Below are positions 29,760 through 60,457 of a stretch of 64,000 nucleotides of DNA, piece after piece (the stretch's first letter is position 1; each line of letters starts with the position of its first letter). The position numbers and the translations under genes are program-made. The notes beneath the pieces were generated by a model. That model made no database searches and was not told the DNA's origin. It was given only the letters and a program-made list of their open reading frames with translations. Source of the DNA: Bacteroidota bacterium (GTDB taxonomy: Bacteria > Bacteroidota > Bacteroidia > Chitinophagales > Saprospiraceae); NCBI GenBank assembly GCA_016124585.1, contig WGNL01000017.1:62001-126000 (forward strand). The letters are read 5' to 3'.

Positions 29760-29764
29760 GTATT

Positions 29765-29797: not shown

Positions 29798-29809
29798 TTG
29801 ACGAAGACT

Positions 29810-34531: not shown

Positions 34532-34537
34532 GATGAA

Positions 34538-40463: not shown

Positions 40464-40464
40464 G

Positions 40465-40536
40465 AATTTTGAATATTGGGATATTGGGATATTGAGTGAA
40501 TGGTTACCAATATCTTAATCACCCAAATATCTCAAT
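40465..40536. repeat. ATATTGGGATATTG-family repeat between ilvC and ilvA
   Basis: GAATATTGGGATATTGGGAT on the left faces CCAATATCTTAATCACCCAA and ATATCTCAATATC on the right, giving an AU-rich hairpin. Confidence 0.7.
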
Positions 40537-40537
40537 A

Positions 40538-41596: not shown

Positions 41597-41636
41597 GATT
41601 TTTTACTTAAAAGATTGATTGTCAAAATATTGCCTA

Positions 41637-41681
41637 AACGTCGGCGTCCCGATAGCTATCGGGATTAACCTCGCCGACGTT
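41637..41681. repeat. nested palindrome: AACGTCGGCG element split by TCCCGATAGCTATCGGGA
   Basis: Outer arms AACGTCGGCG (41637-41646) and CGCCGACGTT (41672-41681) belong to the family at 22744 and 29765. In place of the left inner arm sits an 18-bp perfect palindrome (41647-41664), and the right inner arm survives as AACCT. One palindromic element therefore appears to have been inserted into, or copied over, another. Confidence 0.85.
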
Positions 41682-41689
41682 GTGCTTCC

Positions 41690-42277
41690 TTACATTGAGA
41701 AAACCTTTTCCCCTTCATTCAAAAATTCGTTCTCCGCCGTCTCCTCGCTCGGTTCCAAGGCCTCGAACTCCCGCAACCGCTCATGGAAACTATGGCTGCC
41801 CTTGATGATGGCCACCCTCGCGCTGCGCACGAATTCGATGAGTCCGTAGGGTTCGAGCGCCTTCATCAGGCCATCCGTTTCTTCCCGATGTCCTGTCGTT
41901 TCGAACACGGTGTAGTCCTTCCGGATGACCACCGCCCGTGCGCCGTGCTCCCGCAGCAGCCGCTCGACTTTCACCTTTTCGGCGATTTCATCGGTGGGCA
42001 CTTTGAAGAGCGCCATCTCCTGCCAGATGATTTCCTCGTTGGTGCTGAAATAGACCTTCAGCACGTCCACCTGCTTCTCGATTTGGCGGGCGACCTTGCG
42101 CACGACCTCCTCCGTTTCGTCCACCACAATATTGAAGCGATGGATGCCCGGTATTTCGCTCGGCGAGGTGTTCAAGCTGTCGATGTTGATTTTCCGCCGG
42201 GAAAACATGATGGCGATGCGGTTGAGCAGGCCGACCTGATTTTCAGTGTAGACGGTTATGGTGAATTCTTGCTTCAT
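41690..42277 (-). CDS. ilvN: acetolactate synthase small (regulatory) subunit
   Basis: A 195-aa regulatory subunit. ATG 42277 (MKQEFTITVYTENQVGLLNRIA) gives the usual N-terminal ACT domain: QVGLLNRIAIMFSRRKINIDSLN with IPGIHRFNIVV. A second ACT-like half follows (VFETTGHREETDGLMKAL). It should confer valine feedback inhibition on IlvB. It is 84 bp after ilvB, the gap being filled by a TCATTTGTCATTGG-type repeat. Confidence 0.92.
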   Translation of the reverse strand: MKQEFTITVYTENQVGLLNRIAIMFSRRKINIDSLNTSPSEIPGIHRFNIVVDETEEVVRKVARQIEKQVDVLKVYFSTNEEIIWQEMALFKVPTDEIAEKVKVERLLREHGARAVVIRKDYTVFETTGHREETDGLMKALEPYGLIEFVRSARVAIIKGSHSFHERLREFEALEPSEETAENEFLNEGEKVFSM

Positions 42278-42278
42278 A

Positions 42279-42361
42279 AAATTGTCATTGGGGTCATTTG
42301 TCATTTGTCATTGGCCATTTAGGCATACACCCAATGACTTCAATGACTAATGACCAATGAC
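42279..42361. repeat. ATGACTAATGACC-family repeat between ilvB and ilvN
   Basis: GTCATTTGTCATTTGTCATT on the left faces CAATGACTAATGACCAATGA on the right. The right end touches the ilvB stop codon. Same family as 30843-30915. Confidence 0.7.
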
Positions 42362-44121
42362 TATTTCAATCGTATCTCCGCCACCCCACAGCCCTGCGGC
42401 ACCATCGGGAACACATTATTCTCCTTCCCGACCATCACCTCCAACAAGTACGCACCTGGCGCATCGAGCATGGTTTGGATGGCATTTTTCAAAAAATCAC
42501 GCTCGCAAACTCGCTGCCCGGGTATGCCATAGGCGTCGGCGAGCTTCACGAAATCGGGCGTCACCATGTCCGTGAACGAGTAACGGCGCTCGTGGAAAAG
42601 CTCCTGCCATTGCCGCACCATGCCGAGGAACTGGTTGTTCAAAATCACGATTTTCACCCCAACGCCATACTGCTGGATGACGCCAAGTTCCTGCAAGGTC
42701 ATCTGGAAGCCACCGTCCCCGATGATGCCGATGACCGTTCGGTCTGGCTGACCGACCTTGGCACCGATGGTTGCCGGAAGGCCAAAGCCCATCGTACCGA
42801 GACCGCCGCTGGTGATGTTGCTGCGGGTCTGGTTGAGTTTTGCGTAGCGGCAGGCGACCATCTGGTGCTGCCCTACATCGCTGACGATGATGGCATCGCC
42901 GCCCGTCAGTTCGTTCAGTAGGTTGACCACCTCGCCCATCGTGAGGATGTCGCTGGTCGGGTGCAGCTCGTTTTCGATGACGGCGACCTGTTCTTGAGCA
43001 TCGTGCTCCCGGAATTTGGCCACCCAGTCGTCATGTTTTTTCGGTGAAACGAGCGCCGTCAGCATGGGCAGTGTTTCCTTGCAATCACCCCAAACGGGCA
43101 CGTCGGCCTTCACGTTTTTGTCAATTTCCGCCGGGTCAATGTCGAGGTGGATGACCTTGGCCTGTTTGGCGTACTTATCGAGACGACCCGTCACCCGGTC
43201 GTCGAAGCGCATGCCAATAGCAATCAGCACGTCACACTTGTTGGTCAGCACGTTGGGGCCGTAATTTCCGTGCATGCCCAGCATCCCGACGTTCAACGGG
43301 TGGTCGGTAGGAATTGCGCCAGCACCCAAAATCGTCCAAGCGGCAGGGATGCCCGATTTTTCAATAAAAGCCTGAAATTCAGCTTCCGCATTCCCTAAAA
43401 TCACACCTTGCCCGAACAGCACAAATGGCCGCTCCGCCCGGTTGATGAGTACAGCTGCCTGTTCGATGTACTCCTTCCGAACGATGGGTTTCGGGCGGTA
43501 GCTGCGGATGTGGTTGCAAGACACATATCCTTCATAATCAAAAGTCTGCAACTGGGCATTCTTCGAAATATCCACCAGCACAGGGCCGGGCCTACCGCTG
43601 CGGGCGATGAAAAACGCCTTGGCCAGCACCTGCGGGATTTCCCGTGCATCGGTCACTTGGTAGTTCCACTTCGTGACAGGTGTGGTGATGTTGATGACAT
43701 CCGTTTCCTGAAAGGCGTCCGTGCCGAGCAGGTGCGCAAACACCTGCCCCGTGATGCAGACCAGCGGCGTGCTGTCAATCTGCGCATCGGCCAGCCCAGT
43801 CACGAGGTTCGTAGCGCCCGGCCCGCTCGTTGCGAAGACGACCCCCACCTTGCCGGAAGCACGGGCATAACCCTGTGCCGCGTGGATGCCGCCCTGCTCG
43901 TGCCGCACGAGGATGTGGCGCAGCTTGTCTGAGTAGTCGTACAATGCATCGTAAATGGGCATGATGGCCCCGCCGGGGTAGCCGAAAATGGTTTCGGTGC
44001 CTTCGGCCAGGAGGGCGTCCAAAACGGCAACCGAGCCAGAAACCACGGCGGTTTTGGGCTGTGCCGGAGCAGCGCCGTTTTGATGCTTTTCTGACTTGGG
44101 TATTGCTATGGTTTGCTCCAT
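42361..44121 (-). CDS. ilvB: acetolactate synthase large (catalytic) subunit
   Basis: A ThDP-dependent enzyme of 586 aa that condenses pyruvate with pyruvate or 2-oxobutanoate. Catalytic Glu region ETIFGYPGGAIMPIYDAL, HILVRHEQGGIHAAQGYARA; central domain FVLFGQGVILGNAE; ThDP-binding motif GIIGDGGFQMTLQELGVIQQ ending in a VILNNQFLGMVRQWQ segment. It is expressed with ilvN in the leu-ilv cluster, downstream of a small lipoprotein gene. Confidence 0.95.
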   Translation of the reverse strand: MEQTIAIPKSEKHQNGAAPAQPKTAVVSGSVAVLDALLAEGTETIFGYPGGAIMPIYDALYDYSDKLRHILVRHEQGGIHAAQGYARASGKVGVVFATSGPGATNLVTGLADAQIDSTPLVCITGQVFAHLLGTDAFQETDVINITTPVTKWNYQVTDAREIPQVLAKAFFIARSGRPGPVLVDISKNAQLQTFDYEGYVSCNHIRSYRPKPIVRKEYIEQAAVLINRAERPFVLFGQGVILGNAEAEFQAFIEKSGIPAAWTILGAGAIPTDHPLNVGMLGMHGNYGPNVLTNKCDVLIAIGMRFDDRVTGRLDKYAKQAKVIHLDIDPAEIDKNVKADVPVWGDCKETLPMLTALVSPKKHDDWVAKFREHDAQEQVAVIENELHPTSDILTMGEVVNLLNELTGGDAIIVSDVGQHQMVACRYAKLNQTRSNITSGGLGTMGFGLPATIGAKVGQPDRTVIGIIGDGGFQMTLQELGVIQQYGVGVKIVILNNQFLGMVRQWQELFHERRYSFTDMVTPDFVKLADAYGIPGQRVCERDFLKNAIQTMLDAPGAYLLEVMVGKENNVFPMVPQGCGVAEIRLK

Positions 44122-44211
44122 TTTAATGGGCTTTTATTTTTCAAACTCCAACCACTTACTTTCCATGTAAATGTATCCTTGAAGTTCTTCCTTTTTATAA
44201 ACTGCTACCTT

Positions 44212-44607
44212 TTAAAACTCTCCAATGCTTGAGTCAAAAACGAGTGCCATATCTTCCATTTTGCTGGTTTCATAATATGCACCGAATGGACATCCAAATG
44301 GGTTTCCTTCCACTTCATCAGTAAAAATTGACAGCAAAAACATTTTCCTTGAACTTGTATCCGGCTGCTCGTATCCAAAAATCCTGTGGTCACGTTTCAT
44401 GTTAGCAAATAGGAAAACAGTGCTGTCTTTCTCAATAATTGCTTTTGTAGCGTACTCAAAAGCAATTGCTTCCATTTTTGGCTTACTCGAAGCAACTTGG
44501 TCAACTTTGCTATCATGCTGAGCCTTATTCCCGCTCCCTTTACTATTAGAGATATTGCAGGATACGAGGACTATGCAGCCAATTGAGAAGAATAAATTCA
44601 ATTTCAT
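44212..44607 (-). CDS. hypothetical lipoprotein inside the ilv operon
   Basis: A 131-aa protein I do not recognise. It starts with a lipoprotein signal (FFSIGCIVLVSC; lipobox LVSC, Cys17), so it is probably membrane-anchored. The mature part has a Ser/Lys-rich linker and a mixed domain with FEYATKAIIEKDSTVFLFANM and a paired CPFGAYYETSK. It lies 18 bp after ilvD and 90 bp before ilvB, on the same strand but visibly AT-richer than both. It has no apparent link to branched-chain amino acids and may be a recent insertion. Confidence 0.6.
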   Translation of the reverse strand: MKLNLFFSIGCIVLVSCNISNSKGSGNKAQHDSKVDQVASSKPKMEAIAFEYATKAIIEKDSTVFLFANMKRDHRIFGYEQPDTSSRKMFLLSIFTDEVEGNPFGCPFGAYYETSKMEDMALVFDSSIGEF

Positions 44608-44625
44608 TTTGGTATAAACCTTTAG

Positions 44626-46305
44626 TTATAAATCCGTCACACATCCATCACTCGCTGAACTCACCTGCTTCGCATATTTGTACAACACCCCATTCTTCAC
44701 CTTCAATGCTGGCTTCACCCAATTTTTCCTCCGCTCCGCAATTTCTGCCTCGCTCAAGTTCGCCACCAGTTCGTTGTTCTCAGCGTCAATGGTGATGCGG
44801 TCGCCGTTTTTCACCAAAGCAATCAGGCCGCCGTCATAGGCTTCAGGGGTGACGTGGCCGACCACGAAGCCGTGGGTGCCGCCGCTGAACCGCCCATCGG
44901 TGATGAGTGCCACGCTGCTGCCAAGGCCCCGACCCATGATGGCGCTGGTCGGCACGAGCATTTCGGGCATGCCAGGCGCACCCTTCGGCCCCTCGTAGCG
45001 GATGACAACGACGTGCCCCGCTTGCACTTCCCCGCTGCGGATGGCAGCGATGCAGTCGAATTCGTTGTCAAAAACGATGGCTGTGCCTTCAAACTTTTGG
45101 CCTTCCTTGCCAGATATTTTTGCGACAGCACCGCCCTCGGCGAGGTTGCCGCCGAGGATGCGCAGGTGCCCCGTGGCTTGGATGGGTCGGTCAATTGGCA
45201 GGACAACCGTTTGCCCTTCGGTCAAGCTAGGCAGCTCCGCTAAGTTTTCGGCAATGGTTTTACCAGTAACCGTCATGCTATCGCCGTGCAGCAGTTTTTC
45301 CGACAACATGTACTTCATCACGGCAGGCACGCCACCCACATCGTGGACGTTTTCCATGTGGTACTTGCCGCTGGGTTTGAGGTCAGCCAGTACGGGCGTT
45401 TTCTTCGAAATCGCCTTGATGTCGTTCATCGAAAGCGGGATGCGAGCGGTACGGGCGATGGCCAGCAGGTGCAACACGGCATTGGTGCTACCGCCGAGAA
45501 CGGTCACGAGGCGAAGGGCATTTTCGAAGCTCTCCCGCGTCAGGATGTCCAGCGGCTTCAGGTCTTTTTCGAGCAAAATTTTCATGGCAGGGCCAACGGC
45601 GGCACATTCTTTTTCCTTTGCTTCGCCAACGGCGGGGTTGCTCGCACTGTAGGGCAGGGACAGCCCCAACGCCTCGATGGCGCTCGACATGGTGTTGGCG
45701 GTGTACATACCGCCGCAGGCGCCGGGGCCGGGGCAAGCATGGCGGATGATGGCGTACAGTTCCGCCGCCTCGATATTGCCCGCATATTTTTTTCCCAATG
45801 CCTCGAACGGCGACACGATGTCGAGGGTGCGGCCGTCCCAATGCCCGGTGGCGATGGTGCCGCCATAGACCATGAGCGAGGGGCGGTTGAGGCGTATCAT
45901 GGCCATGACGGAGCCGGGCATGTTCTTGTCGCAGCCGGGGATGGTCACGAGGGCATCGTAGTAGTGGGCCCCCATCACCGCCTCGATGCTGTCGGCGATG
46001 ATTTCCCGGCTGACGAGCGAGTAGCGCATGCCCTCCGTGCCGTTGGATATGCCGTCACTGACGCCGATGGTGTTGAACTCCAGTCCGGTCAGTCCCGCTG
46101 CCCGCACGCTGGCTCGAATTTTCGTTGCTAAATCCCGTAGGTGACGGTTGCAGGGGTTACCCTCGTACCAGTTGCTACAGATGCCGACGAAGGGCTGCTG
46201 CATGTCCTGCTCGGTGAGACCTGCACCGTAGAGCATGGCCATGCTGCCGGCCTGGGTGTCGGTTTGGGAGACGAGGGAGGAGTATTTTTTTAGGTTGTTG
46301 CTCAC
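44626..46305 (-). CDS. ilvD: dihydroxy-acid dehydratase
   Basis: Dehydrates dihydroxy acids to 2-oxo acids, the shared penultimate step of isoleucine and valine synthesis. An iron-sulfur enzyme of about 559 aa with cluster Cys in [26 protein letters not shown] and the first Cys in [17 protein letters not shown] 46305 is preferred as start (then SNNLKKYSS, the family N-terminus); an upstream TTG (46332) would add nine residues. It is directly downstream of an attenuator (leader peptide 46471-46412 and hairpin 46391-46347). Confidence 0.93.
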
Positions 46306-46346
46306 GCTATTTTGATGTTTTTTTGATTTCAACTTGTTGGTTAAAA

Positions 46347-46513: not shown

Positions 46514-47596
46514 TCAAGCCAATTCTGCTGTTTTGGCTGACAATTCAGCCACCTTCCCGGCTACCAAATCCCCCATTTCCGAGCACCGTACTGTCTTCTC
46601 CGCTTGCAAATCGGAAGTACCAAAGCCCGCTTCTAGCACAGCCTTCACTGCCTCCCGCACCGTGTTCGCTTCTTCGCCGAGGCCGAGGTGGTCGAGGAGC
46701 ATGGCGGCGCTGAGGATGGCAGCCAAAGGGTTGGCGATGTCCTTCCCGGCGGCCTGAGGGTAGCTGCCGTGTATCGGCTCGAAGAGTGCCACTTTCGCAC
46801 CGACCGAGGCCGAGGGCAACATGCCGAGCGAACCCGCCAGCACACTGGCCTCGTCGCTGAGGATATCGCCAAACATGTTCTCCGTCAGCACCACATCGAA
46901 ACTGGCGGGGAACTGGATAATTTGCATGGCGGCATTGTCCACGTACATCCAGTCGAGTTGCACGTCGGGGTACTCGACGGCACCGAGGTCGAAGACGATT
47001 TTACGCCAGAAACGGCTGGTTTCCAGCACGTTGGCCTTGTCCACGAGGGTCAGTTTGTTGCGGCGCTGACGGGCGTACTCGAAGGCCAATCGGGCGATGC
47101 GCTCGACCTCCGGTTTCGTGTACACGCAGTGGTCATAGGCGCTGTCTTCGGTCTTGCCTTTTTCCCCGAAATAGATGCCGCCCGTCAGTTCCCGGAAGAT
47201 GACGAAGTCCACGCCCCGCACTTTGTCCTCCCGCAGCGGGGAGAGGCGGGCGAGGTTGTCATAGACCGTCACCGGGCGGATATTGGCGAAGAGGCCGAGG
47301 CTTTTGCGCAAGCGCAAGAGGCCCTGTTCTGGCCGCACCTTGGCCGTCGGGTCATTATCAAAACGGGGGTGACCGATGGCGCCGAACAGGATGGCGTCGG
47401 CAGCCATGCAGGTGTCCAGCGTTGCCTGCGGCAATGGGTCGCCGTGCTTGTCAATGGCGATGGCACCCATGTCGGCGAAGTGGCAATCGAAGCGGTGGCC
47501 GAAGGTGGATTCCACTGTTTTCAGCACTTTCAAGGCTTGGTCGGTGACTTCTGGGCCGATGCCGTCGCCTGGGAGGACTGCTAGTTTGAAATTCAT
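46514..47596 (-). CDS. leuB: 3-isopropylmalate dehydrogenase
   Basis: NAD-dependent oxidation and decarboxylation of 3-isopropylmalate. The 360-aa protein shows LPGDGIGPEVTDQALKVL, LLRLRKSLGLFANIRPV, FRELTGGIYFGEKG and the C-terminal NMFGDILSDEASVLAGSLGMLPSAS split across the active site, with EPIHGSYPQAAGKDIANP. It follows leuD with a small membrane protein gene between them. It is the last leu gene before the ilv attenuator. Confidence 0.95.
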   Translation of the reverse strand: MNFKLAVLPGDGIGPEVTDQALKVLKTVESTFGHRFDCHFADMGAIAIDKHGDPLPQATLDTCMAADAILFGAIGHPRFDNDPTAKVRPEQGLLRLRKSLGLFANIRPVTVYDNLARLSPLREDKVRGVDFVIFRELTGGIYFGEKGKTEDSAYDHCVYTKPEVERIARLAFEYARQRRNKLTLVDKANVLETSRFWRKIVFDLGAVEYPDVQLDWMYVDNAAMQIIQFPASFDVVLTENMFGDILSDEASVLAGSLGMLPSASVGAKVALFEPIHGSYPQAAGKDIANPLAAILSAAMLLDHLGLGEEANTVREAVKAVLEAGFGTSDLQAEKTVRCSEMGDLVAGKVAELSAKTAELA

Positions 47597-47861: not shown

Positions 47862-48473
47862 CTATGCAACAGCTTTCTCGTTCAATACTTCTTTTCCTTG
47901 TTCGAACTGCTCAATTTCATCTTTTAGGCTCAGCAAGAAATCAATGTCATCATACCCATTCAGCATGCAAACCTTGCGGAACGGGTCAATGTCAAATTGT
48001 TCCTCCCGCTCCGTCCCAGGGATGGCGATGGTCTGGTGCTCCAGGCTGACGATGAACTTGGTCTGTGGGTCAGCTTCGATGGCCGTGAACATTTCATGCA
48101 GGAACGCTGGCGATACTTGCACGGGCAGAAGGCCATTGTTCAGCGCATTTCCTCGAAAAATATCGGCAAAGAAGCTGCTCACCACGACTTTGAAACCGTA
48201 ATCCGTGAGAGCCCAGGCGGCGTGTTCCCGGCTGCTGCCGCAACCGAAGTTCTTGCCCGCCACGAGAATTTTGCCGCTGTACGTCGGGTTATTCAACACG
48301 AAATCGGACTTGGGGCTGCCGTCGGCGTTGTAGCGCCAGTCGCAGAACAGGTTTTTCCCAAAACCTTCCCTCGTCGTCGCCTTCAAGAAGCGGGCGGGGA
48401 TGATTTGGTCGGTGTCCACATCCTCAATGGGAAGTGGGACAGCGGTAGAAACTATGTGCGTGAATTTTTCCAT
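47862..48473 (-). CDS. leuD: 3-isopropylmalate dehydratase small subunit
   Basis: Forms the LeuCD isomerase that interconverts 2- and 3-isopropylmalate. ATG 48473 ([26 protein letters not shown]) gives 203 aa, the usual length. An upstream in-frame ATG would overlap leuC and adds a non-conserved extension. The swivel-domain motif [21 protein letters not shown] is intact. It begins 13 bp after the leuC stop. Confidence 0.94.
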
Positions 48474-48486
48474 TTTCTTGATTACA

Positions 48487-49878
<1,392 letters not shown>

Positions 49879-49896: not shown

Positions 49897-51087
49897 TTAG
49901 GAGATGGCAGCATGAGTAGCTTTTTCTTGCTCAACTTCCCAAGCCCTGAACTTCATGATTTCCACTAAATCTTCATCGCTGACTTCTTTCTTCCTATCCG
50001 CTACCACGAGGAAATTGGAGTAAACTGCGTCCAATTCGTCCTTCGTCAAATTGTAGCCAAGACATTTGGCACGGTAGGCCAAAGCAGCACGGCCGCTGCG
50101 TGCGGTGAGCACGATTTTCGAGTGGTCAACGCCCACTTCGAGTGGGTCAATGATTTCGTAAGTCTCGCGTTTTTTAATGACACCGTCCTGGTGGATGCCA
50201 CTACTGTGGGCAAAGGCATTCGCCCCGACAATGGCCTTGTTGGGCTGCACCACCACGCCCATTTTATCAGAAACCAAGTGACTGATGGGGTTCAGGAGGC
50301 GGGTGTTGATGCCCGTCGTATATCCGAGGTCGCCGTGCTGGCGCAATATCATGACGACTTCCTCCAGTGAGGTGTTGCCTGCCCGTTCACCGATACCGTT
50401 GATGGTGCACTCGATTTGGCGGGCACCGTTGATGACCCCGCTGATGGAATTGGCAGTAGCCAAACCCAAATCGTTGTGACAGTGAGTGCTCAAAATGGCT
50501 TTCTCAATGCCTCGCACATTTTCGTAAAGGTATTTGATTTTGGCGCCGTATTGTTCCGGAAGGCAATAGCCTGTGGTATCGGGGATATTGAGCACAGTGG
50601 CCCCGGCCTTGATGGCAGCTTCGAGTACGCGGGCGAGGAATTCATTGTCGGCACGACCAGCGTCCTCAGCGTAGAATTCGACGTCTTCCACAAACGACTT
50701 TGCGTATTTCACGGCGGCGGCGGCACGGTAAAGGATATCCTCTGGGGTGGTCTGCAACTTGTAACGAATGTGCATTTCCGACACACCGATGCCCGTATGG
50801 ATACGCGGACGGACGGCACCTTCCAAGGACTCAGCCGCAGTTTTGATATCTTTTTCGATGGCCCGGCTCAGACCGCATACGGTTGGTCTTCGAACGGCAC
50901 TGGCCACTCTGTGCACTGCTTCAAAATCACCTGGACTGCTGATGGGGAAGCCTGCTTCAATCACATCAACCCCCAATTCTTCGAGCGCACGGGCGATTTC
51001 GATTTTCTGAACGGTGTTCAATTTACAGCCAGGCACCTGCTCGCCGTCGCGGAGGGTAGTGTCGAAGATTTGGATTTGTGTAGCCAT
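49897..51087 (-). CDS. leuA: 2-isopropylmalate synthase, short form without regulatory domain
   Basis: Condenses 2-oxoisovalerate with acetyl-CoA, first committed leucine step. The 396-aa TIM barrel starts [20 protein letters not shown] and contains [28 protein letters not shown] (metal His) and [16 protein letters not shown]. It then has [20 protein letters not shown]. It ends soon after the linker region, so the C-terminal LeuA allosteric domain of the 500-aa enzymes is missing. Leucine feedback inhibition may thus be absent or different. It is the first gene of the leu-ilv run. No leucine-rich leader peptide is visible upstream. Confidence 0.92.
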
Positions 51088-51300: not shown

Positions 51301-52857
51301 GTGGCTAAACAACGCACTGACGACTTACTCCAACTCATCCGCACCCTTACACAGGGTGAAAAGCGACAGTTCCGTCTTTTTGCAAAGCGAAATTCTTCGT
51401 CAGACGACTTGCTTTTCTTGCAGTTGTTCGATGCATTGGATAAAAAAAGTGAGTACGACGAGGCGTCCATTTTGAAGAGAATCCCATCGCTGAAAAAAGA
51501 ACAGTTGCCAAACTTGAAGGCACACCTTTACGGACAATTGCTTACCAGTTTGCGGTTACTGGCGAGGGGACGTAACGAGGATATCCTGCTCCGCGAAAAC
51601 ATTGACTATGCCCATGTACTGTACGACAAGGGGCTCTACCGGCAGGCTTTGGATTTGCTCGGAAAAACAAAGGAACGGGCGGTTAACGGACAGTTCAAGT
51701 CACTTGCAATGGAGATTTTGGAATTTGAAAAACTGATAGAAGGGCAGTATATCACCCGAAGTATTGAGGGACGGGCTCAAGCACTTTCGGAGCAGACATT
51801 GGAAATCGGGCAGGCACTGTCCCAAACACACGAATTTTCTAACCTCGCACTCCAGATGTACGGGCTTTTCATAAAAATCGGCTTCGTACGCAACGAGCGG
51901 GATTATTTTTTCGTGCGGGAGTTTTTCAATGCCCGTTTGCCGCAGGCGAAGTTTGAGGAACTGGATTTTACGGGTAGGGTTTATTTCTGTCAGTCACATG
52001 TTTGGTTGTACCATATTTGTCAAGAATTTGCCCCTTGCTACCGTTATGCGCAGCGCTGGGTGGATATTTTTTCAGAAAACCCTTCCATGAAGGGGCTACA
52101 CCCTGTTTTTTACTTGAAAGGGCTGCACAACTTGCTCCTTGCACTGTTCAACAGCCTTCACGACGAGCGATTTGGGATGGCCCTTCATTTGCTGGAACGC
52201 TATCCCCAAGAAGTAGATTTTAGTCAAAACCGTAACGTGGAGGGGCTTTACCAACTTTACCTAAATATCCATCAAATTAATGCATTTTACTTAAGCGGTG
52301 ATTACGAAGGAGGCGTCAAAATCATTCCCAAATTAGCATCTTTGCTCGAATCGAATCTCTATAATTGGGACTCCAACCGCATCATGGTTTTTCAATACCG
52401 AATCGCCTGCTTGTATTTTGGGAATGGAGAATACGGCCACGCTATTGAGTTTTTAAACAAAATCATTAATCAAAAAACAATTGACTATCGGGCTGATATT
52501 CAGTGTTTTGCAAGGATACTTAACCTCATTGCTCATTTTGACTTGGGCAATGCTGACCTAGTGGAATACCAAGTAAAGTCTGTTTACAGGTACCTGCTTC
52601 ACTTGGAAGATTTACAGCAGGTTCAACGCGAGGTTTTCAACTTTCTTCGTAAAATGCCTAGCACTAGACCTGCTGACCTACATAAGGAGTTCCAATATTT
52701 GCATGAACGACTAGTGCCGCTTCAAGGCGATTCTTACGAACGGAGACCCTTCCTTTACCTTGACATTATCTCATGGTTGGAATCAAAACTTGAGAACAGG
52801 TCAATAAAAGAAATTATCCGTGAGAAAACGGCAATGAGATTACATCGGCGCAGTTAA
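51301..52857 (+). CDS. hypothetical helical-repeat protein (TPR-like)
   Basis: A 518-aa protein with a GTG start and no signal peptide. I do not recognise a family. The sequence is almost entirely alpha-helical. Helix-pair patterns resembling TPRs include YAHVLYDKGLYRQALDLLGK (about residues 100-119) and IACLYFGNGEYGHAIEFLNK (about 366-385). The N-terminus (DLLQLIRTLTQGEKRQFRLF) is basic. A scaffold or regulatory role is possible. It is divergent from leuA and convergent with the replication initiator, ending 24 bp from the latter's stop, where a 26-bp palindrome lies. Confidence 0.6.
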   Translation: MAKQRTDDLLQLIRTLTQGEKRQFRLFAKRNSSSDDLLFLQLFDALDKKSEYDEASILKRIPSLKKEQLPNLKAHLYGQLLTSLRLLARGRNEDILLRENIDYAHVLYDKGLYRQALDLLGKTKERAVNGQFKSLAMEILEFEKLIEGQYITRSIEGRAQALSEQTLEIGQALSQTHEFSNLALQMYGLFIKIGFVRNERDYFFVREFFNARLPQAKFEELDFTGRVYFCQSHVWLYHICQEFAPCYRYAQRWVDIFSENPSMKGLHPVFYLKGLHNLLLALFNSLHDERFGMALHLLERYPQEVDFSQNRNVEGLYQLYLNIHQINAFYLSGDYEGGVKIIPKLASLLESNLYNWDSNRIMVFQYRIACLYFGNGEYGHAIEFLNKIINQKTIDYRADIQCFARILNLIAHFDLGNADLVEYQVKSVYRYLLHLEDLQQVQREVFNFLRKMPSTRPADLHKEFQYLHERLVPLQGDSYERRPFLYLDIISWLESKLENRSIKEIIREKTAMRLHRRS

Positions 52858-52864
52858 GTTTTTA

Positions 52865-52890
52865 AGTAGATAAGTACGTACTTATCTACT
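52865..52890. repeat. 26-bp perfect palindrome at the 3' end of the initiator gene
   Basis: AGTAGATAAGTAC and GTACTTATCTACT are exact reverse complements with no spacer. It overlaps the last codons and stop of the Rep_3 gene. It uses the same AAGTA/TACTT words as the array upstream of parA (55800-56078), and may also terminate the two convergent transcripts. Confidence 0.75.
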
Positions 52891-54321
52891 CATAGTTTTC
52901 ATTTTTTCTTCCAAGACCTTGATTTTAGGTTCATATTCAGCTAGAATCTCTGCAAACGAATCAGCGTGCTGTTCCACTATAGCTTGTCTGACTAGATACC
53001 GCAACATCTTATCTCGGCGGTAATCTTCCAGTTCCAATTCCTTCTTAGCCGTTTTTTCCTTTTTTTCAACAATTACCTTGGCATAGGGATTGTCCCTCAA
53101 GCTTGCAATTGCTTTAAGTGTAACATCAGGCTCTTCTGCTGTAAGCGTCTTTATTTGCTCATTAATACGGTCTGCGGCTACTTCTCTAAGCATTTCCAAT
53201 TCGCCCCGGAGTGTTTCCACTATCCTACCCTTTTCAACCTCTTCGGTCTGACGCCGGAGTTGTTCTTCCTTGACGTCCGTATAGCCGTTGCGTAGTGAAT
53301 TGACGAAAAAACCAGGCACGCTGGTTTTAATCTGGTTGTTAGCTTTAGCTCGCTGCGTAACGCGAATGGCCTGGGCTACCTGATCTTCCGTGCAGTCTTC
53401 CAATAATTCTAAAAAGACCGTAGGTGTTACGCCAAACTTCTGCACGACATCCGCTTGGTATTTATTGAATAAGATATCTCGCATGGTGGTTTGTGGTACG
53501 TCGGATACCTCTGCCACATCTCCAATCACCTTGCCATTAAAAGGTAGTTCAAGAGGCTTTGGCACTACCCTACTTCGTACATGAGGAATGTCCTCGTCTG
53601 GTTTCCTTCGGAAAACAAAACGAAGGCTGACTACTTTCTTACCTTCCTTCACCTTTATGCAATCTGTGATTAGCAGGTCTGTATGCGAGTTTATTTCCTT
53701 GATAGCTGGGCTGACTACCCAGCGGAAGAAATCCGGAAACCGCTGGTATTCTTTCGTTATTTCAAACATCCGCTTGATTTCTTCAATATCCATCGTCCGT
53801 TCGCCTATACTTTCATACTGCTTCAGTAGCTCGTACACACGTATGGGATAAGCGCCTAGCTTGACGACGTTCCGGAGATCATAAGCCGTAAAATTTCTTT
53901 GCAATTGGAGGAAAAATGGCTTCATTTCTTGCTCTATAGTCACATCAATATATTCCTGACTTTCTCTGGGTTGGCCATCCCTTCCATCTTTGAGGTAGTC
54001 TATCTTTCGCAAAATGTGATATTGTACCTCACGGGTCGTCCCATCTTTCTCGTAGCTGACGAAGAAAGATTTGCTCATAATGCTTTTGGCTGCCTCTCGC
54101 AACAAATTGTAGGATTGGTTGGATTTCAAGTTGAATGCGCGAATCACATCTTTGTACCACACACGATACACCTGAAAGTCGTCATCATCGCGACGGATCT
54201 GAGATAAAATGGACAGAAAGAACCGCGTTTCCCAGATGTCGAACCTGTAACGCGACTCAATTAGTTGGTTGGCCTTTTTGATGACGACTATGCCACCACT
54301 TTTACGTCTTCTTTTACCCAT
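52882..54321 (-). CDS. repB: Rep_3-family replication initiator protein
   Basis: A 479-aa initiator of the plasmid RepB/RepE/Rep_3 type. ATG 54321 (MGKRRRKSGGIVVIKKANQLIE) is preferred to an upstream frame running into the iterons. The N-terminal winged-helix pair shows YRFDIWETRFFLSILSQI, VWYKDVIRAFNLKSNQSYNLL, YDLRNVVKLGAYPIRVYELLKQYE, then RRFPDFF-like FPDFFRWVVSPAIKEINSHTDL, covering residues 20-240. A C-terminal extension of over 200 aa, much of it charged coiled coil, is longer than in most plasmid initiators. It should bind the iterons directly upstream to open DNA and load helicase, and probably represses itself through the iterons at its own start. Confidence 0.88.
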   Translation of the reverse strand: MGKRRRKSGGIVVIKKANQLIESRYRFDIWETRFFLSILSQIRRDDDDFQVYRVWYKDVIRAFNLKSNQSYNLLREAAKSIMSKSFFVSYEKDGTTREVQYHILRKIDYLKDGRDGQPRESQEYIDVTIEQEMKPFFLQLQRNFTAYDLRNVVKLGAYPIRVYELLKQYESIGERTMDIEEIKRMFEITKEYQRFPDFFRWVVSPAIKEINSHTDLLITDCIKVKEGKKVVSLRFVFRRKPDEDIPHVRSRVVPKPLELPFNGKVIGDVAEVSDVPQTTMRDILFNKYQADVVQKFGVTPTVFLELLEDCTEDQVAQAIRVTQRAKANNQIKTSVPGFFVNSLRNGYTDVKEEQLRRQTEEVEKGRIVETLRGELEMLREVAADRINEQIKTLTAEEPDVTLKAIASLRDNPYAKVIVEKKEKTAKKELELEDYRRDKMLRYLVRQAIVEQHADSFAEILAEYEPKIKVLEEKMKTMSR

Positions 54322-54327
54322 GACACT

Positions 54328-54571
54328 AAATGTGAGAGATTTGGGACACAATTGCTAAATGTGAGAGATTTGGGAGTATTTTAGATTTGCAAATAAAAGC
54401 TGAACATCAAATAGCGAGCCTAAACTCCCATTTTTCTCACATTTAATCCCAAATATCTCACATTTTCCCAATTCTCTCACATTTTCTCCCATTTTTCTCG
54501 TTTTTCCTCCCAATTCTCTCGTCGTGTATTCCCAATTCTCTCACACTATAACCCAATTCTCTCACATTTAA
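54328..54571. other. iteron array (plasmid-type replication origin)
   Basis: Nine copies of a motif close to AAATGTGAGAGAATTGGG. Two read on the plus strand (GGG at 54343 and 54372), next to the repB start. Seven read in the opposite orientation (CCC at 54427, 54448, 54467, 54488, 54509, 54531, 54552). Spacing of the seven is 19-22 bp, about two helical turns, placing all on the same DNA face. An AT-rich stretch (about 54575-54640) follows. This is the layout of an iteron origin served by the adjacent Rep_3 protein. No DnaA box of the TTATCCACA form was found beside it. Confidence 0.85.
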
Positions 54572-54639
54572 TCATGCTAAGTACCTGATTATCAGCAATA
54601 TATAGCATCCTAAAAGCTATAAAACAATGATAAAAAATA

Positions 54640-54676
54640 AAACACCAACAAAGGGCATCCTTTGTTGGTGTTGAAG
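54640..54676 (-). terminator. terminator of the parA-RHH operon
   Basis: AACACCAACAAAGG and CCTTTGTTGGTGTT pair perfectly around GCAT. On the minus strand it is followed by a T-rich TTTATTTTTTAT. It insulates the partition operon from the iteron region. Confidence 0.85.
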
Positions 54677-54711
54677 CTCTATTAATAAACAAGAAGAAAT
54701 ATCTGCTAGGG

Positions 54712-55068
54712 TTACTCACCAAGGTCGCGCTCTATGAGCATTTCGACATAGTGCATGATATCTGAATCATGTTCAATTGCTTTTATCTTCAGACGCTTGT
54801 GGAGCGATGGATGTATATCGACGGAAAGGCGGACTTTTCTCACGGGAGTTTCTACTACATCCCGGCTCTCTTTTTTTGGCTGCTTAGTTGCAGAAGTTTT
54901 TTTGGTGGTGGTTTTTGAAACTTCTTTTAATGTAGTAGGTTTTGCTGAAGTTTCAGGTTCCGTCTTTGCATCATGTATCTGTTTGATGGCACTTTCTATG
55001 TCATCTACTGAAAGCTGTTTTGGTGGAAGAGACAAAGTGCTTTTTATATTGAAGGTCTTTTTTGCCAT
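54712..55068 (-). CDS. ribbon-helix-helix protein, probable partition partner of ParA
   Basis: A 118-aa protein. Residues 1-70 are a flexible Lys/Thr/Ser-rich region; 75-118 (VRKVRLSVDIHPSLHKRLKI, then KAIEHDSDIMHYVEMLIERD) form a ribbon-helix-helix fold like ParG, omega or CopG. In type Ib partition systems such small RHH proteins bind the centromere and repress the operon, while their flexible N-terminus stimulates ParA ATPase. It begins 30 bp after parA in the same transcript. Assignment as ParB analogue rests on the fold and neighbours. Confidence 0.82.
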   Translation of the reverse strand: MAKKTFNIKSTLSLPPKQLSVDDIESAIKQIHDAKTEPETSAKPTTLKEVSKTTTKKTSATKQPKKESRDVVETPVRKVRLSVDIHPSLHKRLKIKAIEHDSDIMHYVEMLIERDLGE

Positions 55069-55098
55069 TTTGATTATTTTTAAAATTTTTAAATGGGT

Positions 55099-55755
55099 TT
55101 ATAGCAGTTTTTCAATTTCGGTTGCGAGCGACTCTATTTCGCCTTGAGCGTTTTTATCCTTCAACTCCATGATACCGAGACCCTGAACAGTGGCTTCTTT
55201 ATAAGCTACCCTAGTTGATATCTTTGAAGCCAATAAATTAATACCCATTTCTCCAATAGTTTCACCTATTTCCCGGTCTAGGTTTGTGCGCTCATTGTAC
55301 TTATTGAGGACTACAAAAAGTTCTACTTTACCGCCCATTGCCTCCTTGGTTATTCGAGCCTCTTCGAAACGCTTCAAAAAGGTTTCGAGCGCCCAAACGT
55401 CGGTGGCACTAGCTAAAATAGGTGTAACGACAAGGTCACTCATTATTATTATCCTGGTAGTCAATTCAGTCAATGCCGGGGTCCCATCTATGATGACCAA
55501 GTCGTAATTCTTACCTAATTTATTTAAAATCTGATCCGAAATTGTATCCGGATTTATTTGGTAAACTGGTATTTCAGGTACATTCACATCCTCAATTTCA
55601 GCTCTAACACTTCCCCATTTTACAGAGGTTTGCTGTTCAACGTCTGTATCAGCTATGCATAGCTTCCGGCCTTTTTGGGTGAGATAAACAGCTAGATTTT
55701 GTGCCAAAGTGCTTTTCCCTACACCACCCTTGAGATTTGTAACTGAAATTATCAT
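55099..55755 (-). CDS. parA: ParA-family partition ATPase (type Ib)
   Basis: A 218-aa deviant Walker ATPase. Walker A KGGVGKST (residues 9-16), switch regions IADTDVEQQTSVKW and YDLVIIDGTPALTELTTR. It lacks the N-terminal DNA-binding domain of type Ia ParA, and its length fits type Ib (about 210 aa). It should form ATP-dependent complexes on DNA that move or position the replicon through the RHH partner. Upstream lies a 300-bp region full of AAGTA/TACTT palindromes, a plausible centromere and operator. Confidence 0.9.
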   Translation of the reverse strand: MIISVTNLKGGVGKSTLAQNLAVYLTQKGRKLCIADTDVEQQTSVKWGSVRAEIEDVNVPEIPVYQINPDTISDQILNKLGKNYDLVIIDGTPALTELTTRIIIMSDLVVTPILASATDVWALETFLKRFEEARITKEAMGGKVELFVVLNKYNERTNLDREIGETIGEMGINLLASKISTRVAYKEATVQGLGIMELKDKNAQGEIESLATEIEKLL

Positions 55756-56331
55756 CTTGCTTAATTTTTTAAACTGTTGATTGTCAATTAAATAAATCTA
55801 AGTACGATACTTATTTAAGTAAGTAGTTTCCTTTTTTAATTTTTGCACCACAATAGTTGTACTTATTTAAGTACATAAGTAAGTATCGTTGCGCTTGCGA
55901 AGCAAAAGTATGAAACTTAAATAAGTATTGTAAGTTTTTACTTGAATAATATTTAAACTTATATACTTATGTGCTTAAAAACTTAAGTAAGTTTCTACTT
56001 ATGTTTGTAAAATAAGTAATTACTTATGGTTTTATTTTACTTAAATACTTAAGTAAGTACTTACTTAAGTATTTAAGTTTTGTAAGTAAAGAAATAGTAG
56101 ATACCGGAAATCTGAGTATTAATTCTCCCTGCGAATCATAAATTTGCAGCGAATAGGGTAGGAGTAACAATGGAGAGCTGTTTCTATAATCAATGTGCTA
56201 GTGAAGGCCGCATTTTTTTGGTGGAAAAATAGTTTTCTTTGCATTGAACCCATGTCCACATCCAAACGAACAGAAGCTTACTTCTTCTGTTTGTTTTTCA
56301 ATCACCATAATCTTGATTGACCATGTTTTTA
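55756..56331. other. AAGTA/TACTT repeat region (candidate centromere) and uxuA upstream region
   Basis: About 55800-56090 is extremely AT-rich and packed with TTAAGTAAGTA, TACTTATTTAAGTA and ATAAGTAAGTA words in both orientations. It includes a perfect 40-bp palindrome (56039-56078). It abuts parA and probably contains the partition site and the parA promoter/operator. From 56100 to 56331 composition returns toward average. A weak promoter-like TTTCTTTG (about 56233-56240) could serve uxuA. No gene was seen. Confidence 0.7.
56039..56078. repeat. perfect 40-bp palindrome
   Basis: The left half ACTTAAATACTTAAGTAAGT and the right half ACTTACTTAAGTATTTAAGT are exact reverse complements with no spacer. 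It is the longest member of the AAGTA/TACTT set upstream of parA. Confidence 0.9.
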
Positions 56332-57498
56332 ATGGAACAAACCATGCGCTGGTATGGCCCAGAAGACCCAGTCACACTTTGGCATATTCGACAGGCAGGT
56401 TGTACTGGAGTTGTTACTGCGCTTCACCATCTTGAATATGGCGAGGTATGGCCCCTAAGCGAAATTGTAAAACGAAAAAAGCAAATCGAAGCCTTGGGTA
56501 TGACTTGGACAGTCGTTGAAAGCCTGCCTGTCCATGAGGACATCAAAAAGCAGCGTGGCGATTGGAAACTTTACATCAAAAATTACAAAACCAGTCTCCG
56601 AAATCTAGCTGAGTGTGGCCTAAGGGTTGTCACTTATAATTTCATGCCCATTTTAGACTGGCTTCGTACAGACCCTGCTTTCCCCCTTCCTGACGGCAGC
56701 CGTACATTACGATTCGAGCGCGCTGCTTTCATAGCTTTCGATCTTTTTTTATTGAAAAGACCTGGTGCTGAGCGCGACTACACTCCAGCTGAGATTGTGA
56801 AAGCAAAGATGCGCTTTGATTCAATGACCAATGAATTCCGGCGTGTGTTGTATGAAAACATCCTGTTGGGATTGCCCGGTGATGACGAACCATTTACAGC
56901 AGCTGAAGTGCTAGAGGCATTGGAAGGTTACGCTAATATCGGTGCGAAAGAACTGAAAAAACACTTGTTTGACTTCTTGCGAGAAGTTGTTCCAGTGGCG
57001 GAGGAGGTAGGCCTTAAAATGGCCATCCATCCCGATGACCCGCCGTACCCAGTGCTAGGTCTCCCTCGTGTAGTGAGTACCGAACAGGATGTGGCAGACC
57101 TGCTGGCAGCTGCACCATCGCCGGCCAATGGCCTTTGTTTCTGTGCTGGTAGTTTTGGTTCTCGGCCTGACAATAACCTGTCTGGTATGGTCAAGCGATT
57201 TGGCGATCAAATCCACTTCCTACACCTCCGCAACACAAAACGTGATAACGAGGGCAATTTTTACGAAGCCAACCACCTAAGTGGTGATACGGATATGCCT
57301 ACCTTGGTGCGAGAAGTCTTGGCGATTATGCAGCGCCGAGGTGTCAGCATACCTATGCGACCCGACCATGGTCACCAAATGTTGGATGATCTTGACAAGA
57401 AGACTTACCCTGGCTACTCGGCTATCGGAAGGCTTCGGGGGTTGGCTGAACTTCGGGGGCTGGAGAAAGGGTTAGCCTATGCAATGACGCAAAAATGA
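56332..57498 (+). CDS. uxuA: mannonate dehydratase
   Basis: Dehydrates D-mannonate to 2-keto-3-deoxygluconate in hexuronate (glucuronate) breakdown. The 388-aa protein starts at ATG 56332, giving [16 protein letters not shown], which parallels the E. coli start MEQTWRWYGPNDPVSL; nearby upstream starts are less likely. Metal-site and family segments include [52 protein letters not shown] and [14 protein letters not shown]. It is followed on the same strand by xylB and xylA, so uronate and xylose use are grouped. Confidence 0.94.
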
Positions 57499-57586
57499 TA
57501 CTAAGTAAAACTGTAGTAAATTAGTTTGCATTGATATGAACCAAGTCGGTGGAGCTCCATCAACCTAGTATCTAAAAGATATTTTC

Positions 57587-59077
57587 ATGTATTTAATTGG
57601 TTTTGACATAGGTAGTTCATCTATCAAAGCGGCACTAGTGGAGGCTGAAACAGGAGCTACTTTGGCCATTGCCCAGTCTCCAGCATCGGAAATGGGTATG
57701 ATTGCGCACCAACCGGGCTGGGCAGAACAAAACCCCGAAGACTGGTGGACGCACGTTTGCGCTGCAACCCGCCAATTATTGGCAGATTGTAGCGTAACAC
57801 CAGCCGAGATCAGGGGCATCGGCATCAGCTACCAAATGCACGGGCTCGTAGTGGTAGGCGACGATTTGAAGCCGCTGCGCCCATCCATCATCTGGTGCGA
57901 CAGCCGGGCAGTACCTTTTGGGAATAAGGCCTTCGATGAAATTGGCCACCAGAAATGCTCTTCACACCTGCTCAATTCCCCAGGAAATTTCACGGCTGCA
58001 AAATTAGCTTGGGTAAAGGAAAATGAACCAGCATTGTTTGCTAAGATAAGGCATTTCATGTTGCCAGGCGACTATATCGCCCTACGCCTGACCGGAGAGG
58101 CCATGACCACCCCTAGTGGCTTGAGTGAAGGCATTCTCTGGGATTTTTTGAAAAACGATATTTCTGATCCAGTATTGGATTATTTCGGTTTCAGTAAAAA
58201 ATTGGTGCCACATGTCACGCCCACATTTTCATTGCAAGGTAATTTAACACCCGAAGCTGCTGCTGCCACGGGTCTTGCTGTAGGCACCCCGGTAGCCTAT
58301 CGTGCTGGCGACCAGCCAAACAATGCTCTCAGTCTCAATGTACTGCAACCAGGTGAGGTTGCTGCTACAGGTGGCACCTCTGGCGTCGTGTACGGTATCG
58401 TAGGAAAGCCTGTTTTTGATATTCAATCGAGGGTCAATGGATTTTGCCACGTGAATCACGATGCTGACAACCAACACATCGGCATTTTACTTTGCATCAA
58501 CGGGGCTGGCAGTATGTACCGCTGGCTACGCCAAACGGTGGGTCAGGGTAGCATAAGCTATCCCGACATGGAACGGCTAGCCGATACTGTCCCCATCGGC
58601 TCAGATGGACTACGCATTCTGACCTTCGGCAATGGTGCGGAACGTATACTCAATAACCTTGACATAGGTGCACAGGTGAACAACCTACAACTGAACCGCC
58701 ATTCGGCTTCTCACCTCTATCGAGCAGGGCTGGAAGGCATCGCTTTCTCGTTCGTGTATGGTGTCCAAATTTTAAAGGAAATGGGCCTCGAAATTTCCGT
58801 CATGCGGGTCGGTAACGATAACCTGTTTCAGTCAGCTGTTTTTTCCAAAACAATTGCTAGCTTGCTTGGCTGCTCAATTGACATGGTGCAAACGACTGGA
58901 GCAGTAGGTGCTGCCAAAGCAGCAGGAGTAGCAACAGGAATTTACCCTAACATTGAAACGGCAATGGCAAACGTTCAAATCATTGGCCGTTACGAGCCAA
59001 CACCGGGTAGAGTAGGGGAGTACCGGGCTGCGTATGAAACTTGGGTTGCGGATCTAAAAAAGAATATTTCACAATAA
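57587..59077 (+). CDS. xylB: xylulokinase
   Basis: Phosphorylates D-xylulose to xylulose 5-phosphate. FGGY-family kinase of 496 aa. N-terminal phosphate-1 motif IGFDIGSSSIKAALVEAE, substrate segment ISYQMHGLVVVGDDLKPLRPSIIWCD, and the C-terminal FGGY signature region SHLYRAGLEGIAFSFVYGVQ with ATGGTSGVV for nucleotide binding. It sits 88 bp after uxuA and 18 bp before xylA. The neighbour xylA makes xylulokinase more likely than another FGGY kinase. Confidence 0.93.
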   Translation: MYLIGFDIGSSSIKAALVEAETGATLAIAQSPASEMGMIAHQPGWAEQNPEDWWTHVCAATRQLLADCSVTPAEIRGIGISYQMHGLVVVGDDLKPLRPSIIWCDSRAVPFGNKAFDEIGHQKCSSHLLNSPGNFTAAKLAWVKENEPALFAKIRHFMLPGDYIALRLTGEAMTTPSGLSEGILWDFLKNDISDPVLDYFGFSKKLVPHVTPTFSLQGNLTPEAAAATGLAVGTPVAYRAGDQPNNALSLNVLQPGEVAATGGTSGVVYGIVGKPVFDIQSRVNGFCHVNHDADNQHIGILLCINGAGSMYRWLRQTVGQGSISYPDMERLADTVPIGSDGLRILTFGNGAERILNNLDIGAQVNNLQLNRHSASHLYRAGLEGIAFSFVYGVQILKEMGLEISVMRVGNDNLFQSAVFSKTIASLLGCSIDMVQTTGAVGAAKAAGVATGIYPNIETAMANVQIIGRYEPTPGRVGEYRAAYETWVADLKKNISQ

Positions 59078-59095
59078 ACTGACAATCATAAACTT

Positions 59096-60457
59096 ATGGC
59101 AAATAAAAAAGCAATAAAAACCACAAAATCCAACCTAACAGTTGGTAAAAAAGAATACTTCAAGGGTATTGGCCAGGTTCCGTTCGAAGGACCTGCGAGC
59201 GATAACCCCCTGGCATTCCGGTGGTACGATGAGGGACGCATCGTGCAGGGTAAAACGATGAAGGAGCATTTTCGCTTCGCAATGGCATGGTGGCACACGC
59301 TCTGCGGCACGGGCGGTGACCCCTTTGGCCCCGGCACAAAGTCCTTTCCTTGGCTCAAGGCAAAAGATCCAGTTGAGCAGGCGAAGGACAAAATGGACGC
59401 TGGTTTTGAGTTCATCACCAAGATGGGCATACCTTTCTACTGCTTCCACGACTATGACCTCGTTGCCGAAGGTGATACGCTGAAGGAAAGCGGAAAGCGC
59501 CTTGAAAAAATCACGGACTACGCTGCCGAGAAGCAGAAGGAGAGCGGCGTGCAACTGCTGTGGGGAACGGCGAATTTGTTCAGCCACCCTCGTTACATGA
59601 ACGGTGCTGCCACAAACCCCGACTTTGACGTGGTGGCCTATGCAGGTGCGCAGGTAAAAAATGCCCTTGATGCTACCATCAAATTGGATGGTGCAGGCTA
59701 TGTGTTCTGGGGTGGCCGTGAGGGTTACATGTCGCTGTTGAACACAGACATGAAACGTGAACTGGACCACCTCGCCCGCTTTTTGCACATGGCAAGGGAT
59801 TATGGCCGCAAAAACGGCTTCAAGGGTACATTCTTCATCGAACCAAAACCGATGGAACCGAGCAAGCACCAGTACGACTTTGATGCGGCAACTTGCCTGA
59901 ACTTCCTTCGGGAATTTGACCTGATGGCGGATTTCAAACTGAACATTGAAGTAAACCACGCAACGCTTGCGCAGCATACCATGCAGCACGAGATGCGGGT
60001 GGCGGCTGATGCCGGTGCATTGGGTAGTCTTGACGCCAACCGCGGCGACTATCAGAATGGATGGGACACCGACCAATTCCCGAACAATGTAGTTGAACTG
60101 ACGGAGGCGATGTTGGTACTGCTAGAAAGTGGCGGCTTGCAAGGTGGGGGCATCAACTTCGATGCGAAAACTAGGCGGAACTCTACGGATTTGGCAGATA
60201 TTTTCTATGCCCATATTGGAGGCATGGACACATTTGCAAGGGCATTGCTGGCCGCTGATGCAGTTTTGGAAAAGTCGGAATATGGAAAATTACGGCAAGA
60301 GCGATATGCTTCTTTTGACAAGGGCAAAGGCAAGGATTTCGAGAAAGGGAAATTGGACTTGAAAGACTTGGCCAAACTAGCCAACGAAAATGGTGAACCA
60401 AAGCAGCGAAGCGGCAAGCAGGAACTTTTTGAGAACATCATCAACCGGTTTGCGTAA
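59096..60457 (+). CDS. xylA: xylose isomerase
   Basis: Interconverts D-xylose and D-xylulose. The 453-aa length is that of class II enzymes. Active-site His in YCFHDYDLV, metal-binding stretches [56 protein letters not shown] and [19 protein letters not shown] are complete. The N-terminus has a Lys-rich extension ([13 protein letters not shown]). It is directly after xylB, so the two form an operon. The xylulose 5-phosphate formed is also the product of the araDA route at the other end of the window. Confidence 0.96.

Follow-up and report, generated by a model that had tools for sequence, protein, structure and literature searches.

A Rep_3 initiator and ParA partition module on a probable plasmid-type replicon with core amino acid biosynthesis genes in Saprospiraceae

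The window analyzed here is a 64-kb stretch of DNA from a Bacteroidota bacterium of the family Saprospiraceae. It spans positions 62001-126000, the middle third, of contig C15 (182,266 bp), which belongs to a draft genome of 6,632,590 bp in 45 contigs with a listed completeness of 100%. At 52.9-56.1 kb, the window contains a plasmid-type replication and partition module that is flanked by core metabolic genes. What is the role of such a module among genes for amino acid biosynthesis? The original prediction left two answers open: a plasmid that integrated into the chromosome, or the origin of the replicon itself. We consider it very likely that C15 represents a separate, circular replicon of plasmid type, approximately 182 kb in size, which uses the module for replication initiation and partition.

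Architecture of the replication and partition module

The module consists of the following elements, given in window positions.

52865-52890, no strand: 26-bp perfect palindrome with ACTTA/TAAGT words, just downstream of rep (repeat analysis)
52882-54321, minus: rep, Rep_3 (RepE/RepB-type) initiator with winged-helix domains WH1 and WH2, 479 amino acids (aa), ATG start (Pfam, PDB)
54328-54346 and 54357-54375, plus: two inverted iterons directly upstream of the rep ATG (repeat analysis)
54426-54569, minus: seven direct iterons with a 19-bp core, start-to-start spacing 19-22 bp (repeat analysis)
54712-55068, minus: ribbon-helix-helix (RHH)-type partner of ParA, 118 aa (Pfam RHH_10)
55099-55755, minus: parA, short (type Ib) partition ATPase, 218 aa (Pfam, NCBIfam, PDB)
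55780-56095, no strand: AT-rich ACTTA/TAAGT cluster upstream of parA (word counts)

Rep contains both domains of a Rep_3 initiator, WH1 and WH2, which are matched by the Pfam models Rep3_N (96.4 bits) and Rep3_C (64.4 bits), and its best solved relative in a PDB search is the F-plasmid initiator RepE (1rep; E = 1.5e-14). The seven direct iterons run in the same direction and agree with the 19-mer at 14-19 of 19 positions, and the two inverted copies bring the total at the module to nine. Two exact 15-mers from the iteron unit are confined to this module in the 1.80 Mb of the window's genome that was sampled for word and 15-mer counts. The direct iterons lie beside rep approximately 21-22 bp apart and are kept in relatives, as is characteristic of a Rep_3 theta replicon. 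In RepE-type systems, initiator monomers open the origin by binding to direct iterons, and initiator dimers repress rep by binding to inverted iterons. By their placement and orientation, the seven direct iterons of the module are probably the replication origin, and the two inverted iterons probably serve as the rep operator.

ParA matches the Pfam model AAA_31 (73.6 bits) and scores 161.6 bits against NCBIfam NF041546, which is under the cut-off of that model (180). The protein is short, lacks an N-terminal DNA-binding domain and resembles ParF of TP228, its best solved relative (4dzz; E = 5.4e-18), and thus has the features of a type Ib ParABS ATPase. The RHH assignment of the smaller protein is marginal because its RHH_10 score of 26.9 bits falls under the cut-off of 27, and no NCBIfam model matches it; its position directly downstream of parA fits a partner. 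By analogy, it probably plays a ParG-like role. ParF-ParG pairs segregate plasmids via repeats upstream of parF. At the equivalent position of the module, the AT-rich cluster (78% AT) includes a perfect 40-bp palindrome at 56039-56078 and 28 ACTTA/TAAGT words. In 1000 dinucleotide shuffles, the word count was 4.8 +/- 2.0 and never exceeded 11. At least 12 such words occur in just three of 17,732 300-bp segments of the genome, all three of which overlap the cluster. A word cluster is also found upstream of parA in the congeneric genomes G154, G158 and G165 (17, 14 and 21 words, respectively, in the best 300 bp) and is not found at the five other Rep_3 modules of the same genome (2-5 words each). 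The cluster is probably the centromere or operator for the ParA-RHH pair, again by analogy.

Biosynthesis genes around the module

The neighboring genes were named using NCBIfam models and those of the module using Pfam; "below cut-off" denotes a score under the model's own threshold.

19306-27184, plus: arg block with argG-like (19306, below cut-off), argC (20597), argD-like (21590, below cut-off), N-acetylornithine carbamoyltransferase (22811), argB (23850), argE-like (24646, below cut-off) and argH (25787)
28521-30862, plus: homoserine sulfhydrylase-like (28521) and metX-like (29798) genes, both below cut-off
33002-39130, minus: glutamate synthase genes gltD (33002-34531) and gltB (34538-39130)
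39216-46332, minus: ilvA (39216), ilvC (40538), ilvN (41690), ilvB (42361) and ilvD (44626)
46514-47596, 47862-48533, 48487-49878 and 49897-51087, minus: leuB, leuD, leuC and leuA
51301-52857, plus: 518-aa protein without a Pfam match, adjoining the leu genes (open reading frame, Pfam scan)
56317-60457, plus: uxuA, xylB-like (below cut-off) and xylA

The position of the module between the leu-ilv-glt cluster and uxuA-xylBA therefore agrees with the original prediction, apart from the sub-threshold xylB-like gene, and the Rep_3 initiator, the nine iterons, the type Ib ParA and the palindromic AT-rich region are likewise upheld by the Pfam, PDB and repeat analyses. The predicted RHH partner holds by position and is borderline by score. 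The arg cluster and the met-type genes at 19-31 kb had been overlooked. leuA, ilvC and argG, the three genes that were checked for copy number, each occur once in the window's genome, and all three copies are located on C15. Given that these are sole copies of at least leuA, ilvC and argG, C15 is probably indispensable in poor medium.

The LeuA protein of C15, at 396 aa, belongs to a short type that lacks the LeuA_dimer regulatory domain, which is present in the 510-aa LeuA of the congener G159. G061, G156 and G159 encode LeuA of the 508-510-aa type at 68-69% identity. A LeuA match is found in 51 of 90 family genomes, and frames of approximately 390-440 aa are the commoner form. Leucine feedback control may differ in the C15 enzyme, which lacks the allosteric domain. 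KilA-N domain genes are present on C15 (window 27669-28499) and on two other contigs, C1 (L003 8135-8971) and C2 (L008 12140-13000). To the right of the window, C15 contains a 5565-aa open frame beside other large open frames (C15 159657-176354).

Conservation of the module in the genus

The genus comparison covered 14 genomes, namely the window's own and 13 congeners, and Rep orthologues were counted at E <= 1e-100. Relatives of Rep at 72-84% identity are present in four of the 13 congeners, and the other nine have no match at this threshold. In one of them, G158 (the same genome as G153), Rep, ParA and uxuA share a 79,315-bp contig (JALHQW010000035.1) with leu, ilv, glt and arg genes, including the single leuA, ilvC and argG copies of that genome. 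The contig has 60 open reading frames of at least 120 aa. In a comparison with 1.3 Mb of the window's genome, 34 of these match C15 best (28 at >=70% identity), five match other contigs best and 21 have no match. The 79-kb contig starts with genes found on C15 at approximately 89.2 kb and below and finishes with genes found on C15 at approximately 89.7 kb and above, both in the same orientation; the contig ends share 143 bp at 96.5%. Because these ends fall where C15 is continuous, the gene order of this contig is circular.

Rep and ParA lie within approximately 4 kb of uxuA at three loci of congeners (L057, L058 and L060). On the other side, L058 has the 518-aa gene and leuA immediately next to Rep. 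In L060 and in the L059 contig, which starts inside rep, roughly 8 kb of other genes intervene, and in L057 both genes are absent. The conserved neighborhood that the original prediction proposed to look for is thus found in part. The seven direct and two inverted iterons recur with the same spacing in G154 and G165 and are more diverged in G158.

Between the window's genome and the others, the proportion of nonsynonymous differences (pN) is 0.10-0.18 for rep and 0.09-0.14 for parA, with synonymous sites saturated; for the sole close pair (G154 and G165), the ratio of nonsynonymous to synonymous rates (dN/dS) of rep is 0.04. Both genes are intact and, by these comparisons, under strong purifying selection. 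The module has been preserved intact, together with part of its neighborhood, over a long divergence. If C15 is a separate replicon, one with this kind of cargo would predate the split of several congeneric species.

Ends and composition of C15

The two ends of C15 share an exact direct overlap of 78 bp, and joining them produces a single stop-to-stop frame of 2653 codons. In our reading of the translation, this frame seems to run from a signal peptide to a tail of the type IX secretion system (T9SS) type. In sequence comparisons, the two ends match one another, and apart from the start of C15, the last 400 bp have no match above 79% identity elsewhere in the genome. At this level, the ends speak against continuity with the chromosome on both sides. 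C15 also differs in composition from contigs without a Rep_3 gene, with a GC content of 51.1% compared with 45.8 +/- 3.0% (52 segments) and a tetranucleotide correlation of 0.88 compared with a median of 0.95.

No tRNA and no Rfam match at gathering thresholds was found on C15. The 79-kb contig of G158 likewise has no tRNA and yields one small-RNA match (Acido-Lenti-1; 39.1 bits, cut-off 37). We dropped the absence of tRNA genes as proof of plasmid status, given that just seven tRNAs occur in the other sampled stretches.

Other replication modules in the genome and family

The genome contains six Rep_3 genes (on C1, C2, C3, C7, C15 and C43), each with a ParA-type gene nearby. The six modules have six different repeat families, as expected of compatible replicons; a spacing of 21-22 bp is found in all of them, and wider spacings occur in addition in C43, C1, C2 and C3. 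The ends of C3 overlap by 141 bp, and this contig also carries a gene for a relaxase. Given the six Rep_3-ParA modules with their own repeats and the terminal overlaps on C3 and C7, the cell probably has several plasmid-type replicons. In G127 and G057, two genomes of two contigs each, the smaller contig likewise encodes a homologue of Rep (27% and 30%, respectively). A single dnaA gene (219.8 bits) was mapped to C30, a contig other than C15, and the idea that DnaA is absent was therefore rejected.

Three further observations concern these other contigs. C7 (195 kb; loci L073/L123 and L005) has an exact terminal overlap of 136 bp, its own ParA, a Rep that is 52% identical to that of C15, different iterons and, in the RHH position, a 132-aa gene without a Pfam match; it is probably another circular replicon. 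C43 (270 kb) bears a second module in L006 (C43:240876-260875; rep 8987-10558, ParA 11670-12308). An orthologue of its Rep occurs in all five congeners searched (G061, G154, G158, G163 and G165; 64-89% identical) with shared neighbors, and its tetranucleotide correlation is chromosome-like (>=0.94) in 8 of 14 segments. Given that G061, G158 and G163 place genes from both C43 ends next to one another, C43 may be a genus-wide second circular replicon. An exact 141-bp sequence is common to C1 and C2 (86 kb each; ends L017/L003 and L021/L008) at one end, and 176 bp match at 95% at the other; the two contigs may therefore be linked via a shared repeat.

Pathway genes across the genus

The C15 replicon brings together genes that some congeners carry at separate places on the chromosome. 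In G061, G156 and G159, leuA and ilvC do not share a contig. The genes on C15 may have moved there or may have replaced chromosomal versions. In G061 and G156, the leu cluster lacks Rep; leuA is beside ligA, as it is in the one-contig genome G062, and an Hsp90-type (htpG-type) gene is on the other side of the cluster, with rpoB approximately 14 kb away (gene names around the G061 cluster from Pfam). A homologue of the 518-aa protein (42% in G061) is also found in the chromosomal-type leu clusters of G061, G156 and G159.

leuA, ilvC and argG are all present in four of the five genus genomes with this Rep, although in G165 they are contig-edge fragments and in G163 argG has one stop. The fifth, G154 (99% complete), has this Rep and none of the three genes. 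Its 85.7-kb contig, which is not closed, leads from rep to ilvD and on to genes from 89 and 78 kb of C15, without the leu genes between rep and ilvD and without the ilvB-to-arg block. Among the nine genomes without this Rep, one has all three genes, five have one or two (G164, 99% complete, argG alone) and three have none. The last group consists of G160 (98%), G155 (89%) and G161 (100%), with a 27% LeuA-like hit in G161 counted as none. Because binning can drop plasmids, G154 is the only genome in which loss on the replicon itself is seen.

Alternative explanations

Several observations weigh against a separate replicon. At 78 bp, the C15 overlap does not reach the length of those in C3 and between C1 and C2 (141 bp each), and it lies inside a repetitive surface-protein gene, which makes the in-frame joining weaker than it seems; the circular closure of C15 is thus a likely reading of its ends. 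In C15, the module does not stand out as an origin by GC or TA skew (rank 0.66 among positions for both), so the strand and skew argument for an origin fails there. On the 79-kb contig of G158, GC skew peaks 1.1 kb from the module, but the module itself ranks only at 0.076, and TA skew disagrees (rank 0.78). We accordingly set skew aside as origin evidence, with no support in C15 and weak support in the 79-kb contig. The lack of tRNA genes is weak evidence given the small number sampled, and no DnaA box within one mismatch of the consensus TTATCCACA is present in four orthologous modules; a DnaA box near the iterons of Rep_3 replicons is common and not universal. The leu cluster is not tied to the module everywhere, since the C15-type leu cluster of G162 is located on a 13.8-kb contig that has a ClpB-type gene nearby and lacks Rep. 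In G163, C15-type leuA is found on two small contigs. In G085, a Rep_3 homologue with three in-frame stops (L045, C1:571585-575238) lies near the end of a 577-kb contig and may be a module that integrated and decayed; the family thus does contain decayed or integrated copies of modules of this kind.

This G085 copy, the core metabolic neighbors of the module, the short overlap in a repeat and the chromosomal leu clusters of G061 and G156 are what could be expected if a plasmid had integrated between leuA and uxuA, leaving C15 as an ordinary chromosomal contig. We regard integration as unlikely, given the circular gene order of the 79-kb contig in G158, the end overlap of C15 with no other partner contig, its deviating composition and the intact module under selection. 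Moreover, with leuA and ilvC apart in G061, G156 and G159, one insertion beside leuA would not explain the leu-ilv-glt-arg block on C15. The same deviating composition would also suit a plasmid of another organism that was misbinned into this genome, and plasmid contigs are often misbinned. However, the genome has no other leuA, ilvC or argG, and among the 120 relatives searched, Rep relatives of at least 72% identity are seen in the same genus only (4 of 13 others) and have shared neighbors, which makes misbinning quite improbable. An intact module that lacks a DnaA box could, in principle, start replication of the main chromosome in place of a DnaA-dependent oriC. Such a role is scarcely credible, considering the full dnaA on C30, the five other Rep_3-ParA modules, the nine congeners without a match to this Rep at E 1e-100 and the absence of a skew turn at the module in C15. 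Of the two answers of the original prediction, the replicon's own origin is therefore favored over chromosomal integration, and the impression of a module embedded in a chromosome arises because a plasmid-type replicon carries unusual cargo. C15 is most likely an autonomous plasmid that gathered core biosynthesis genes in a chromid-like manner.

Proposed mechanism and implications

By analogy with RepE-type plasmids, binding of Rep to the seven direct iterons would open the origin, and Rep would repress its own gene via the two inverted iterons at the start of rep. In addition, ParA and the RHH protein may segregate the replicon through the ACTTA/TAAGT cluster upstream of parA, as in the TP228 ParF-ParG system. 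The replicon maintained in this way would carry the sole leuA, ilvC and argG copies together with other genes for Leu, Ile/Val and Arg biosynthesis, glutamate synthase and some Met-type genes.

A more tentative idea, which we consider possible but doubtful, is that C15 is a "prototrophy plasmid" on which pathways scattered on the chromosomes of some congeners were gathered as sole copies and from which they can be lost together. If so, one plasmid would decide the auxotrophy of a whole lineage. C15 also cautions that a pathway called "missing" in drafts of this group may have been located on plasmids that were unbinned or trimmed.

Comparison with known systems

The nearest named plasmid by Rep is pHALHY03 of Haliscomenobacter hydrossis (NC_015513.1, 92 kb), whose Rep_3 initiator is 42.6% identical over 97% of the query. 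As on C15, ParA and KilA-N genes are present, and on pHALHY03 both are near rep, the KilA-N gene by annotation; unlike C15, it has no leu or uxuA gene in the 17-kb stretch examined and shows another gene order around rep. The closest solved structures, 1rep for Rep and 4dzz for ParA, link the module to RepE/ori2 of the F plasmid and to ParF-ParG of TP228. The F plasmid also combines direct iterons with inverted copies at the rep operator, as at the C15 module. Similarity to RepE and ParF is remote at the sequence level, and the C15 Rep extends approximately 240 aa beyond the WH2 match.

Second chromosomes are known in Bacteroidota, for example in Flammeovirga (PMC8653839); Prevotella intermedia reportedly has one as well. 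Chromids, as characterized in PMC12456017, combine plasmid-type replication and partition with core genes that relatives have on their chromosomes, and C15 shares both of these features. The third, a chromosome-like composition, is not shared, given that the GC content of C15 is approximately 5 points above that of the contigs without Rep_3, and the replicon is just 79-182 kb in size. We therefore rejected classification of C15 as a chromid on its GC content and tetranucleotide correlation. Parabacteroides "plasmid 12" (NZ_OY725757.1), which in the 29 kb examined combines ilv and leu genes with RelA/SpoT-type and other housekeeping-like genes, is suspected to be a chromosomal fragment and was left unused as a parallel. 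In the open-licence literature, no paper on such a replicon in Saprospiraceae was found.

Plasmid-borne leuABCD is known from pLeu of Buchnera aphidicola. As described in PMC3229713, pLeu has the replication genes repA1/repA2 and seven genes in the pea-aphid symbiont, and it differs from C15 in these replication genes and in its obligate-symbiont host. Buchnera accounts for 63 of the 119 PLSDB records with a LeuA match at E 1e-60, and the listed Buchnera record is 8.2 kb. Core biosynthesis genes on plasmid-type replicons are thus already known from chromids and Buchnera, but a Rep_3 replicon of 79-182 kb with sole copies of Leu, Ile/Val and Arg pathway genes in a 6.6-Mb Bacteroidota genome offers a natural example of how pathways come to leave the chromosome and bears on whether prototrophy can be acquired or lost as a single unit.

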